From positions 1 to 22,579 of the IMG/VR virus record IMGVR_UViG_3300025121_000141: a DNA stretch of 22,579 nt. The stretch is one strand, 5' to 3'. Both the position numbers and the translations under genes were made by a program. The stretch comes from a virus. The first letter of the stretch is position 1; each line of letters opens with the position of its first letter. The notes under the pieces are model-generated. The model did no database searches. It had not been told where the DNA came from and saw only the letters and a list, made by a program, of their open reading frames with translations. This document shows positions 5,773 through 19,690 of this stretch, one piece after another.

Positions 5773-6450
5773 TTACTTCTTACTGCGTCTACTTATATAT
5801 TCTATCGAATATTCATGGCAATCTTCAGCAGAATATCTTGCAGCTATCGCTTCGGAGAGGTCTTCAAACGAGCCTAGATATTTCTTCTTGTTGTTGATAC
5901 GGATATCTGCAATCCATTTCGAAATCCTTTTGTCATAAGATACACCTGAAACACCAGATGTATTATTATGTTGTATTCGACGATTGATAGTTTGTGTCAA
6001 GCGTGATGCCCAAATACAGTTCGAAGGCTCATAGTTGCCATTTACATTTATCCGATCTAATGTATACCCGTTAGGTGGCTCCCCCATATCTTTATAAAAG
6101 GTTTCGAAAGAGTCTGACCACTCTCTACAAACCGTAATATCTCTTCCACCATAATACTTAAAATCAGACCTATTCTTGTTGAAACATCTTGATACCATAT
6201 CCTTCCATTGTTTATATATCCTTGTGCCTGTCATACCATGAGTTTTAGTCCTAGCACTTGTCAAATCATTCGCTAAACAACCACAAGACTTGGTGCGACC
6301 ATTTTTTAATGGGTTTGATGGGACCAAACAATAGTTTCCACATATACACTTACACAACCAATGTATCCTTTTACCTGGTTCCCTATCACACATCTCGATA
6401 ACAGTCAACCTATTAAAGGACATTCCCGTTAAATCTACAAATTTTCCCAC
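5773..6450 (-). CDS. HNH homing endonuclease with AP2 DNA-binding domain, inserted in the lysis cassette
   Basis: A GTG start with GAGGT just upstream gives 225 residues. An N-terminal zinc-ribbon-like part has KCICGN (about 34-39) and KSCGCL (about 54-59). The HNH core follows: GMTGTRIYKQWKDMVSRC, YYGGRDITVC, then LDRINVNGNYEPSNCIWA around residues 130-147. A C-terminal AP2-type domain (SGVSGVSYDKRISKWIADIR, then YLGSFEDLSEAIAARYSAE) would bind DNA. Such genes are mobile and cut alleles lacking the insert. It is the only gene on this strand between 2 and 9138, and it separates the DUF5675 gene from the holin candidate. A diverged relative lies at 18981-19690. Confidence 0.88.
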   Translation of the reverse strand: MGKFVDLTGMSFNRLTVIEMCDREPGKRIHWLCKCICGNYCLVPSNPLKNGRTKSCGCLANDLTSARTKTHGMTGTRIYKQWKDMVSRCFNKNRSDFKYYGGRDITVCREWSDSFETFYKDMGEPPNGYTLDRINVNGNYEPSNCIWASRLTQTINRRIQHNNTSGVSGVSYDKRISKWIADIRINNKKKYLGSFEDLSEAIAARYSAEDCHEYSIEYISRRSKK

Positions 6451-13359: not shown

Positions 13360-14253
13360 CTAGCCTTCACAAGCTTTGCATTCATCTTTAGCTGCCTGAA
13401 CACCTGCCAGAGTTCTGACATAATACAACCCTTTAATCCAAAGATCAAGTAAAGCTTCTTTATGGATTTGAGCAATATACTCTTCAGACTCTTCAGCAGC
13501 AAAGAATAAATTCAGACTCTGCCCTTGGTCTATGTATCTCTGCCTAGTAGAGGCCAATCTAAGAATAGCTCGTTGATCAATCTCAAAAGCTGTTTTAAAG
13601 ACTTCCTTTTCTAAGGCTGTTAGCCAGTCGAGATGCTGTACAGACCCATTATTATCTATGATAGACCTGATAGTAGCCTTAGTATGCTTCCCCCTCTCAT
13701 TCATTAAACTTAGAAATTGAGGATTAATACGCTGCATCTCTCCAGCTGACGTTGCTTGCATAAATACGTTGGCATAGATAGGCTCAATGCCTTGGCTTAC
13801 TTGGCCTGCTATTACAGCGGAGGACATATTAGGAGCCACGCTTAGGCGATGTGTATTTCTAACCCCGTACCCTCTACACCAACCAGGCGCTCCCCACTCC
13901 TTCGCCATCCATTGTGAAGCCTCTAATGTTTCATCGTGAAGATGTTTAAACATCTCAGTATTCTTCTGGTGCGCTTCAAAAGAATCAAAAGGAATCATAT
14001 TACGTTGAAAGTAAGAATGAAGCCCTAAAGTTCCTAATCCAAGGCTTCTAGCTCGTTCTGTGTAAGCTACGACTTTTTCAAGCCCTCTGGTGGTTTTACA
14101 TCTTTGAATAAAGGATTCTGCTACGCAGTCTAAGAATACAAGTGCAATAAATGCTGCTCCGGTATCTTTCCATTCATCATAAAAGAACAAATTCATGCTT
14201 GACAATACACAAGAGTATGTAAATTCTTTATCTGCGAATAGTGTAATCTCTGT
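13360..14253 (-). CDS. nrdA: ribonucleotide reductase large subunit, exon 2
   Basis: Second exon, 297 residues after splicing. It starts TEITLFADK, completing the active-site loop NLC-TE begun in exon 1 (Escherichia coli N437, C439, E441). It then has YSCVLSSMNL with the second redox Cys (C462 equivalent), and PNMSSAVIAGQVSQGIEP, the conserved region contacting substrate. Near the end, YYVRT carries the Tyr pair of the radical path (Y730/Y731), and DECKACEG holds the C-terminal Cys pair reduced by thioredoxin or glutaredoxin. The reading frame can be opened by a TTG at 14265, but the four extra codons lie in the intron. The exon boundary is inferred from family alignment plus the intron's terminal G. 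Confidence 0.9.
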   Translation of the reverse strand, partial: TEITLFADKEFTYSCVLSSMNLFFYDEWKDTGAAFIALVFLDCVAESFIQRCKTTRGLEKVVAYTERARSLGLGTLGLHSYFQRNMIPFDSFEAHQKNTEMFKHLHDETLEASQWMAKEWGAPGWCRGYGVRNTHRLSVAPNMSSAVIAGQVSQGIEPIYANVFMQATSAGEMQRINPQFLSLMNERGKHTKATIRSIIDNNGSVQHLDWLTALEKEVFKTAFEIDQRAILRLASTRQRYIDQGQSLNLFFAAEESEEYIAQIHKEALLDLWIKGLYYVRTLAGVQAAKDECKACEG

Positions 14254-14542
14254 CAAAATGTTCAATAGCAGTCGTTAATTACTATCAGCGGCATCACCCG
14301 CATCTATATATTGCTACATAGCTCAGACTATATCATGTACTGTGCTCAGTACCCCTCCGCTTCGCTTCACTTGAAGCTACTCTACTCCATTCCATCTATT
14401 ATACATAGAAAGTGTTTCGATAGTCGTTACAGATTTTCAAGGTGCTCACAATCAATGTTGTAGAAGAGCCTTGAACTTTCCACGGTATTGTCTACTTAAG
14501 AGTTCCACCGTTTTCAAAGGGTTTTTATTGTGCTAGCTATTA
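14254..14542 (-). ncRNA. group I self-splicing intron in nrdA, 289 nt, no open reading frame
   Basis: The intron follows a U (exon ...TTGTGT) and ends in G. The internal guide GCACAA (14533-14528) pairs with the exon end TTGTGT (14548-14543), giving the required U-G wobble at the splice site. Conserved core elements are AACGACTATCG (about 14428-14418) and ATGATATAGTC (about 14336-14326); GACTA and TAGTC form P7. ACGGT and ACCGT pair further upstream, as do GAAC and GTTC, fitting the P3-P6 area. Removing these 289 nt restores one nrdA reading frame across the catalytic motif. No endonuclease is encoded inside, so it would need outside help to move. Confidence 0.88.
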
Positions 14543-15391
14543 ACACAAATTACTTGCTTTATTAGTTAATCCTCTATCCTTGTACATTTGAGGTTGTTGC
14601 TCATTCACATGATCTACCTTCCAGAAGTAGCCCTTACCTGTCTGCATCTTTACCCATAAAGCCTTCTTGAATCGTCGGATAGAATCTTCATCTCCAGCTT
14701 CACATTTAGCTATAAATGCTTTAGTGATATTCCAACCTATATTCAGACCTTGGGGGTTCTTATGTAAATGGTCCGCCCACTCATCAAAGTCTGCGTGATC
14801 TATTTCAATATACCCCGCCCAAGAACCTCTTCGAATACCAGCTTGGGATACTTCCTTAGCATCATTAGTAAAGCCTATAAGCACAGGTAGAGTGCCTTCA
14901 GCCTTCCCTCCTTTGCTTATAGGCGATCCTCTTGGGCGTATGCCACCTAAGTATGCTGAAGTTCCGAAACCTTCTTTAGTGAGCAATGCTGCCTCTCTAC
15001 GCCCGCTCCAGAAGCCATCAATACTATCTTCTATGTAACTTCCGCTACAGCTAACGGGGCTACCTCTATTTGTGCCGCCATTGGCAAGTACGGGGGAGGA
15101 AGGGGCTAGAAATCCCCTCGCCATTAGATTGTAAAAACAAGCCGTCCAATCCTTCCCGTAGTTGTTAACTATTCTTTCGTAGTATGGATTATCCTTAGCG
15201 ATAAAAGTTGACGCATACTGAGCCATGTGTTTTGAAATGCGTTGAATTTGATCGAAGTATCCATCAGCCTCAACCATGTATCCTTCTTTAAACATTTGCC
15301 AAGAGCCTGTTGTCATCCAATCAGGGAGTTTGCCCTCGGCTTGCAGTTTCTTTCTCTCTTCCGAGAGTTGTTCATATATAGACTTACTCAT
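14543..15391 (-). CDS. nrdA: ribonucleotide reductase large subunit, exon 1
   Basis: NrdA reduces ribonucleotides to deoxyribonucleotides with NrdB. ATG 15391 is chosen because AAGAGG lies 6 nt upstream; a GTG six bases earlier overlaps this site. The 283-residue exon has SSPVLANGG...SPVSCSGSY with the first redox Cys at about residue 115 (C225 in E. coli), KEGFGTSAYLGGIRPRGS, and RRGSWAGYIEIDHADFDEW. It ends NLC, the last residue being the catalytic radical Cys; in-frame TAA follows in the intron. The protein starts close to the catalytic barrel, so the ATP-cone allosteric domain of longer NrdA proteins is missing. Spliced length is 580 residues, against about 760 for E. coli NrdA. Confidence 0.9.
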
Positions 15392-15400
15392 TTGCACCTC

Positions 15401-16369
15401 TTACCATTCAAATCTGTCCATGTTCCATTTACGGTGGTATTCTCCACTTTGTGTATTAAAGAAGTCATGGAGTTTAATGCTATTAATCCCATCAAAAAAC
15501 CAATCAGCTATAGGGTTGTACTTAACCTCGTAGATGCTCTTGATATCTAAATTATTCAAGCAAGCATTAATACGACTTTCCACAAAGTGTTTCATCTGTA
15601 CGCTAGTAATACCTTCAATAATCCCTTTTTCAAAGATCATATCAATGATACGACACTCGTGTTCGTATATCTTCTTAGCAGCTTCTATAATAAGCTGCTC
15701 CTTAGCTTCCACTTCTTCTTTAGAAAGGTTAAGTTCTTGCTTTAGAGTTTTATATAACCAAGCACCTCCTTCAGCATGTAGATTCTCATCCTTTACCGAG
15801 GAATTGATGCCGCTTACTAAGTTCTTCAGTAGGTTCTTTCCCCCGTTCCGGTAATGCTTAAGGAATGCAAAAGCGGAATACAGCACAGCTCCTTCCACAA
15901 TGCTAAAAGCCCCTAGTGAAAGTAGGTCGTCGTCAGAACTTACAATTTCATTAATGTGGTCCATACGCTCTTTCAAAGTAGGATCATTAATATAGCTTGT
16001 GTAGAACTCCTCTGTATCTAAGTTCAGCACTCTATTTACTTCATTATAAAAAACTGCGTGCATATTTAATTCTGCGTAAGCAAACGCATTAGCCATTCGC
16101 TGAATACAAACTCTAGGGAATCTTTTGGCAATTCTATTACCCCAGTATTCATTTCCAGCTACTAATTCATACTTAGTGAAGAGCTTTAAAACTGTAGTAA
16201 CTGCGTGTCTATCAGCATCTCCGACTTTAGTTAGAAGTTCATGCAAGTCATCTTCTACAGGAAATTCAGAAGGCGGCCAGGCAATGCTGAACTGTGCCTC
16301 CGCAAATTCTATAGCTGCTGGATAAGTTACAATGTAAGATGTTTGTGGTTGTTTACACAAAGGAAGCAT
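15401..16369 (-). CDS. nrdB: ribonucleotide reductase small subunit (radical-generating)
   Basis: 322 residues. NrdB carries the di-iron centre and tyrosyl radical needed by NrdA. Visible ligand segments are DRHAVTTVLKLFTKYE (about 52-67, Asp ligand), AELNMHAVFYNEV (about 98-110: Glu, His and, four residues after His, the radical Tyr), SIVEGAVLYSAFAF (about 156-169, Glu) and KDENLHAE (about 193-200, Glu and His). The C-terminus NMDRFEW would dock on NrdA. Its ATG shares the A of the MazG-like stop (TAATG) and it ends 9 bp before the nrdA start, so the three genes form an operon. Confidence 0.92.
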   Translation of the reverse strand: MLPLCKQPQTSYIVTYPAAIEFAEAQFSIAWPPSEFPVEDDLHELLTKVGDADRHAVTTVLKLFTKYELVAGNEYWGNRIAKRFPRVCIQRMANAFAYAELNMHAVFYNEVNRVLNLDTEEFYTSYINDPTLKERMDHINEIVSSDDDLLSLGAFSIVEGAVLYSAFAFLKHYRNGGKNLLKNLVSGINSSVKDENLHAEGGAWLYKTLKQELNLSKEEVEAKEQLIIEAAKKIYEHECRIIDMIFEKGIIEGITSVQMKHFVESRINACLNNLDIKSIYEVKYNPIADWFFDGINSIKLHDFFNTQSGEYHRKWNMDRFEW

Positions 16370-18712: not shown

Positions 18713-19003
18713 TTAATTAATTACCTTTAATCCATTATTTTCAAATTCAGGATTATCCGGCAGAGTACAAGTGCAGAATGGAATTTGTTCTTTACCTTTT
18801 TGAACGTATTCATAGATGGTACGACCCTCACGATTCCACTCGTATAAATCCCTTTTAGGATCATAATTTTTAATCTGTTCAATGATTCCATCAATGTTAC
18901 CGCATGTTGGACACCGAGTAGTGTGAAATTTACGAGTATCATCTTTCATTTGTACTGCCTTTCTAAATTGTTGACTTTTACTACTTTTGTTCTGTGATTT
19001 CAT
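18713..19003 (-). CDS. zinc-finger phage protein, about 96 residues
   Basis: CPTCGN (about residues 31-36) and a later FCTCTLPDN give two Cys pairs, likely a zinc-binding site. The region between is charged (EQIKNYDPKRDLYEWN). The start is uncertain: ATG 19003 has AAGAG 9 nt upstream and overlaps the end of the HNH pseudogene, while ATG 18949 has AAAGG 8 nt upstream. The N-terminal Lys/Ser/Gln-rich extension (MKSQNKSSKSQQFRK) looks low-complexity, and it may have been added by insertion of the HNH gene just before it. Function unknown. Confidence 0.6.
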   Translation of the reverse strand: MKSQNKSSKSQQFRKAVQMKDDTRKFHTTRCPTCGNIDGIIEQIKNYDPKRDLYEWNREGRTIYEYVQKGKEQIPFCTCTLPDNPEFENNGLKVIN

Positions 19004-19690
19004 TTTGCAATCTCTTTTGTTGATATTCTTCAGCATGTTCTGAAGCGTCTTCTGCTGTGTATCTAGCAGAGGCGGCTTCTTCTTTTGTTTTAAAACAACC
19101 TAAATGTTTAGGTCTTTTGTTGATGCTTATTTGAGCAATCCAGCTCTTGCTAGATTTATGCCAGCTAACTCCGTTAATACCAGACTTATTTTTATTAGTT
19201 AAACGTTGGTTTATAGATTGTATTGTTTTATCTGCCCACCTACAATTAGCAGGCTCATAATCACCATTATTGTCTATACGATCCAAGCCATAATTTTTAG
19301 CAGGTCTTGGCTCTACATCTTTTTTAAAGTTCTCAAATGATTCTAACCAATAATCGCAAACTTTAATACCTCTTCCCCCATGATCCTTGTATTGCTTGTT
19401 ATTTGGATTATAACAACGCTGTATAATAGACCTGTAAATATCGTACAAATTTGTCTTAGAACTGCCATGAGTAGTCATAAGTTTCTTAACAATGTCTTTT
19501 TGTAAACAACTGCAAGACTTGGTTTGACCTGACTTTAATAACTTTCCGGTAGTTTCAATTTTATTGCCACAATCGCATTTACATAACCAAACTGAATTAC
19601 CTTTTTTATCATTCAGAGATTTTGCTACTACTAAAAGCCTACCAAATCTTTGTCCTGTTAAATCTGTAAATTAATAGGAGGTTTTCTCAT
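18981..19690 (-). pseudogene. HNH-AP2 homing endonuclease, frameshifted near the start
   Basis: Related to the gene at 5773-6450 over its whole length. ATG 19690 with AGGGA upstream opens MRKPPIN, but stops soon after. From 19670 the other frame reads FTDLTGQRFGRLLVV, then WLCKCDCGN, TKSCSCL, the HNH core (YNPNNKQYKDHGGRGIKVC; LDRIDNNGDYEPANCRWA) and an AP2-type domain (SGINGVSWHKSSKSWIAQ; LGCFKTKEEAASARYTAE). One extra T in the run at about 19670 would join MRKPPIN to FTDLTGQ and give about 236 residues. As it stands only an internal start at 19478 gives a protein, lacking the N-terminal zinc ribbon. Confidence 0.82.

Follow-up and report, generated by a model that had tools for sequence, protein, structure and literature searches.

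How can a viral ribonucleotide reductase (RNR) gene with a stop codon immediately behind the codon for its catalytic residue yield a complete enzyme, and by which route did the interrupting sequence arrive there? The locus that raises these questions lies within a stretch of 22,579 nucleotides, positions 1 to 22,579 of the IMG/VR virus record IMGVR_UViG_3300025121_000141, hereafter referred to as the window. Here, the gene for the RNR large subunit, nrdA, consists of 2 exons on the minus strand, a strand that the first-pass annotation of this DNA had not named. Exon 1 (14543 to 15397; Pfam PF02867/PF00317 and PHROG RNR matches) encodes the N-terminal half of the protein and ends in SNLC, and exon 2 (13360 to 14253; Pfam PF02867 and PHROG RNR families) extends from TEITL to the C-terminal CKACEG. 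They are separated by an insert of 289 nt (14254 to 14542, minus strand), and the small subunit gene, nrdB (15401 to 16369, minus strand; Pfam PF00268, E 3.7e-40), is located directly upstream. The catalytic motif of class I RNR is NLC.E, and the cysteine of the window is the counterpart of C439 of E. coli NrdA. The 3' end of exon 1 reads AAT TTG TGT (N-L-C) and the 5' end of exon 2 ACA GAG (T-E), matching the earlier placement of the cut directly after the catalytic cysteine codon (NLC/TE). The predicted junction after removal of the 289 nt is AATTTGTGT-ACAGAGATT. The joined frame stays open for 582 codons from a GTG, or for 580 codons from an in-frame ATG, which is the start supported by homologues, so that both the 580-residue product and the coordinates proposed previously are correct. 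The earlier statement on the unspliced gene needs a small amendment: reading does end at the cysteine, but the TAA stop is the very next codon, not one codon further.

The insert is an ORF-less group I intron, as judged from its match to the Rfam family Intron_gpI (RF00028), its helices, and the introns found at the same site in other phages. A scan of the window at the default Rfam thresholds returned no match, because the score of the insert falls below the curated cut-off of 50 bits. A scan by E-value overturned this result: the match is full length and reaches 45.4 bits, 4.6 bits below the cut-off, with an E-value of 8.4e-9 for the window and 1.9e-10 for a 501-nt segment. The covariance-model scan that the first-pass annotation had put forward as a check on its group I assignment thus gives a match, albeit one below the cut-off. 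Folded as a whole, the insert has an unexceptional minimum free energy (z -0.88), which was therefore not counted as evidence; the identification is based on the covariance match, on single helices, and on comparison across phages, all in agreement with the original assignment.

The P3-P9 core of group I introns, including the guanosine-binding helix P7, is present in the insert, and P4, P7, P8, P9, P9.1, and P9.2 are all fully paired. All elements lie on the minus strand. The guide sequence GCACAA (14528 to 14533) pairs with the exon sequence UUGUGU to form P1, with a U.G pair at the 5' splice site, and the short P1 hairpin folds at -6.8 kcal/mol. Folding and comparison place the P4-P5 domain (ACGGU/ACCGU) at 14482 to 14511, and folding places the P6 stem-loop at 14436 to 14475. 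In the Rfam alignment, the 5' strand of P7, GACUA (14421 to 14425), is matched by UAGUC (14326 to 14330). Between P7 and P3', fold and sequence reveal stem-loops of the P7.1/P7.2 type (14364 to 14416), followed by the P8 hairpin GUACUG AGCA CAGUAC (14337 to 14352) and by P9, P9.1, and P9.2 (14264 to 14321), both defined by fold and comparison. The last base of the insert is a G at the 3' splice site (CAUUUUG/ACAGAG). The U.G pair of P1, the P7 pairing, and the terminal G noted at first pass are accordingly all in place, whereas by-eye inspection saw no convincing P10 pairing between ACAGAG and the guide region. The helices also pair in 6 other phage introns wherever they could be placed by hand, and P4, P8, P9, and P9.2 carry compensatory changes across related phage introns (for P4, ACGGU/ACCGU, ACAGG/CCUGU, and ACGGG/CCCGU); the P7 pairing is conserved throughout the introns compared. 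The extra stems between P7 and P3' are the mark of subgroup IA, to which the td intron also belongs, and the fold, the alignment with the td-type intron, and the P9.1/P9.2 extensions make IA2 the best placement, an assignment based on structure and not on a dedicated subgroup model. No ORF of at least 60 aa was found within the 289 nt, consistent with the earlier remark that an internal homing endonuclease is missing.

Taken together, we consider it very probable that an IA2 group I intron, acquired horizontally, resides after the catalytic cysteine codon of nrdA and is spliced out to yield the 580-residue NrdA. From its architecture we infer self-splicing chemistry: in the transcript, exon UUGUGU would pair with the guide GCACAA, exogenous guanosine bound in P7 would attack after the U of the U.G pair, and the free 3' OH of the exon would then attack behind the terminal G, so that NLC and TEI are joined. 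In unspliced mRNA, reading would end at the UAA behind the cysteine codon. It is conceivable that the intron has decayed and lost splicing, leaving nrdA as a pseudogene or as a split gene, with exon 1 read to the TAA, exon 2 translated from an internal TTG, and the halves assembling as in Aeromonas phage Aeh1. A split NrdA working without splicing is documented for that phage (PMC3653736, PMC2988022), an in-frame TTG is available 12 nt upstream of the exon 2 start (ORF 13360 to 14265), and the Rfam score lies under the cut-off. Nevertheless, P1, the helices of the core, and the terminal G have all been preserved, both exons are full length and open, the exact boundaries restore the conserved SNLC-TEITL, and similar ORF-less introns occupy the same site elsewhere, 3 of them scoring above the Rfam cut-off. 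We therefore regard such decay as very improbable. An intein is ruled out in the window by the stop directly after the cysteine codon, which leaves the frame closed.

Relatives of the window NrdA provide empty sites. The 2 nearest NrdAs in IMG/VR (L001 and L002; 74-76% identity) run without a break through precisely the predicted junction, which supplies the comparison with intronless nrdA genes proposed in the first-pass annotation, and none of the 80 related IMG/VR loci inspected has an intron at this site. About 10 of these 80 contain an in-frame, intein-like insert that ends in HN before the cysteine. That annotation had also named the finding that would speak against an intron, namely that the 289 nt would code for conserved protein in homologues; inteins apart, coding sequence matching the insert is present in 0 of the 80 loci. 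A split gene with a conserved coding insert is rejected for the same reason. The 51-kb contig of L002 (G002), the closest intronless relative, shares with the window only nrdAB and one weakly similar structural protein, and hence does not represent a near-isogenic genome with an empty site. It appears that the RNR cassette travels as a unit between phages that are not otherwise related.

Annotated phages were surveyed by tblastn for insertions at the NrdA active-site motif, and this survey, together with a pattern scan, showed that the motif is repeatedly interrupted. Staphylococcus phages Stau2 and Romulus harbor an 839-nt insert with a GIY-YIG gene exactly at NLC/SE, and 39 phage records contain the Stau2-type intron sequence with at least 99% identity. 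Vibrio phage VH-8 (L211) contains a 254-nt ORF-less group I intron 4 nt upstream (75.9 bits). This VH-8 intron (vB_VhaM_VH-8; L211 1327-1591) is unannotated, and the record calls its exon 1 a hypothetical protein. Intein-type inserts at NL/C were detected by tblastn in phages of Curvibacter, Rheinheimera, Synechococcus, Caulobacter, and Vibrio (inserts of this type are found in L010, L030, L038, L039, L041-L043, L055, and L056, and in phage records L214-L218). The pattern scan, which required a td-like intron end followed by codons for [T/S]-E-I and left the 5' exon unconstrained, uncovered 4 further unannotated introns in uncultured phages (L260, L261, L264, and L279). All 4 lack an ORF, measure 245-281 nt, occupy the same position, and have a stop codon immediately behind TGT. 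Rfam scores exceed the cut-off for 3 of them. The exception, L261, was without an Rfam match even at an E-value limit of 0.1, and its classification therefore derives from its alignment with the window intron and from elements identified by hand. A scan of viral contigs for the 5' splice site plus guide gave no convincing intron among the matches listed.

The relationships among these introns are indicative of movement between distant genes. A maximum-likelihood tree was built from 240 aligned columns of 17 phage introns. Most of its deeper branches are unresolved, but the window intron and that of L261 are sisters with support of 100/98 and are 69% identical over 237 columns. In the same tree, the Stau2 intron groups with another Silviavirus nrdA intron, and the VH-8 intron with a T4-type td intron. 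A single clade of all 6 same-site introns including Silviavirus was rejected (AU p 0.0008), and with it the descent of the window intron from the GIY-YIG-containing Silviavirus intron at the same site; a single clade of the 5 ORF-less same-site introns was neither rejected (p 0.39) nor supported. The introns of L260, L264, and L279 are not clearly of the lineage of the window intron. The host proteins are highly diverged: NrdAs of L260, L261, and L264 are 30-42% identical to that of the window, with L261 at 30%, and the NrdA of L279 is 55% identical. The L261 NrdA itself shares 76% identity with its counterpart in Rheinheimera phage Barba29S, where an intein-type insert at NL/C is found in place of the intron. 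Because one intron lineage occupies 2 very distant nrdA genes and close kin of both genes are without it, we infer that the intron moved horizontally and would have come to the nrdA site by such transfer.

The exon sequence flanking the intron bears on how it may have moved. Immediately ahead of the intron, the window, L260, and L261 share the 12 nt AGTAATTTGTGT, from which L264 and L279 deviate by at most 1 base. The upstream identity between the window and L261 (12/12 nt) extends to a serine AGT codon, for which the intronless kin of the window have TCN, along with other leucine codons. An exon end compatible with P1, xTGTGT, is found in all 6 intron-bearing genes versus 6 of 61 distinct intronless loci, an enrichment (Fisher p 9e-6) that is only indicative since the loci are related. 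Two causes, which may act together, can explain this bias: selection of targets by P1 pairing, and co-conversion of flanks during homing.

Because neither the window intron nor its L261 counterpart encodes an endonuclease, the intron would either have relied for homing on a free-standing endonuclease acting in trans or, once homed, have lost a gene of its own. The latter course, as for other ORF-less phage introns, is the simpler default, and we give it roughly even chances. Silviavirus phages carry a GIY-YIG gene within an intron at the identical site, in the very place where the P9.1 loop of the window intron is tiny, and homing cycles usually end with decay of the endonuclease (PMC2814812). 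At the same time, rejection of the 6-intron clade (AU p 0.0008) means that the Silviavirus intron is not the direct ancestor, the 4 other same-site introns recovered by the pattern scan all lack an ORF, and no ORF remnant is visible in the window intron.

Mobilization in trans is a more tentative proposition, in which free-standing HNH endonucleases of the window would cut intronless nrdA (collaborative homing). The window contains 2 HNH frames. One is a free-standing, AP2-containing HNH endonuclease gene and possible trans partner (5773 to 6450, minus strand; phrog_374, E 2.4e-83), which sits antisense between plus-strand genes. The other (18984 to 19670, minus strand) is 45% identical to the first; it has no ATG, GTG, or TTG for its full length, the first usual start giving 165 aa (19478-18981), and is therefore possibly decayed, unless it begins at 19478. 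An HNH gene of 49% identity is present on the L261 contig, which carries the sister intron, and no HNH match was obtained in the contigs, several of them fragments, of the other same-site introns or of the intronless relatives searched, including the 51-kb contig. Free-standing endonucleases that mobilize ORF-less introns are established in other phages (PMC3984707, PMC2988022), with collaborative homing described for cyanophage psbA and a second phage system (PMC3984707). However, HNH genes of this family are widespread (matches at E up to 1e-20 in 576 of the 50,697 phage records), the L261 gene lies ~45 kb from nrdA, one of the window genes is without a usual start codon for its full frame, and a single concordant genome pair does not constitute a statistical association. 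Given how common the family is and how distant the L261 copy, the HNH partnership is a lead, no more.

A third route, in which free intron RNA would reverse-splice into nrdA mRNA and the product be reverse transcribed and recombined, appears improbable. It would need P1 pairing alone, and the intron-bearing genes all have the xTGTGT exon end, yet the window genes searched included no evident reverse transcriptase, and co-conversion of flanks accounts as well or better for the 12/12 upstream identity to the sister, including the serine AGT.

The preference of invading elements for active sites is standard knowledge and not new (PMC2988022, PMC2814812). The literature yielded no account of group I introns at the catalytic cysteine codon of nrdA, in a search whose scope left aside the original Twort and Romulus/Remus papers, and we claim no priority. 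ORF-less introns make up the majority of the same-site introns found in this analysis, and the window intron, with its sister in a 30%-identical NrdA, offers a compact test case for the movement of introns without an endonuclease. The 2 HNH genes, with intronless and intron-bearing targets, suffice to probe collaborative homing in vitro.

In phages, group I introns reside most often in RNR genes. Such introns occur in nrdB and nrdD of T4, nrdE of Twort, and nrdE and nrdF of SPbeta and, like the window intron with its predicted splicing, have a self-splicing group I architecture near conserved residues (PMC3653736). They reside in other genes or sites, most with a present or past endonuclease gene, whereas that of the window is ORF-less. 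The Silviavirus nrdA intron (Romulus, Remus, and Stau2) has the identical insertion point and a similar 3' domain but is 839 nt long, carries GIY-YIG in P9.1, and belongs to a different lineage. The introns of L260, L261, L264, and L279 share both the position and the absence of an ORF and differ in their diverged host NrdAs. The VH-8 intron is likewise an ORF-less group I intron in the same active-site motif, although it lies inside the leucine codon, 4 nt upstream, and groups with td. The T-even td intron, which in Escherichia phage 215Ecol030PP (L239) occurs without an endonuclease gene, resembles the window intron in subgroup, domain order, and P7-P9 and P9.2 sequence, but interrupts a different gene and is ~56% identical over aligned positions. 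Finally, NrdA inteins at NL/C, e.g., in Rheinheimera Barba phages, likewise interrupt nrdA at this motif, a single codon away from the intron, but leave the protein instead of the RNA and use the catalytic cysteine as their +1 residue. The kind of intron is thus ordinary, and the new part is its comparative setting: within 4 nt of a single NrdA motif, several group I lineages as well as inteins have settled independently in phages.
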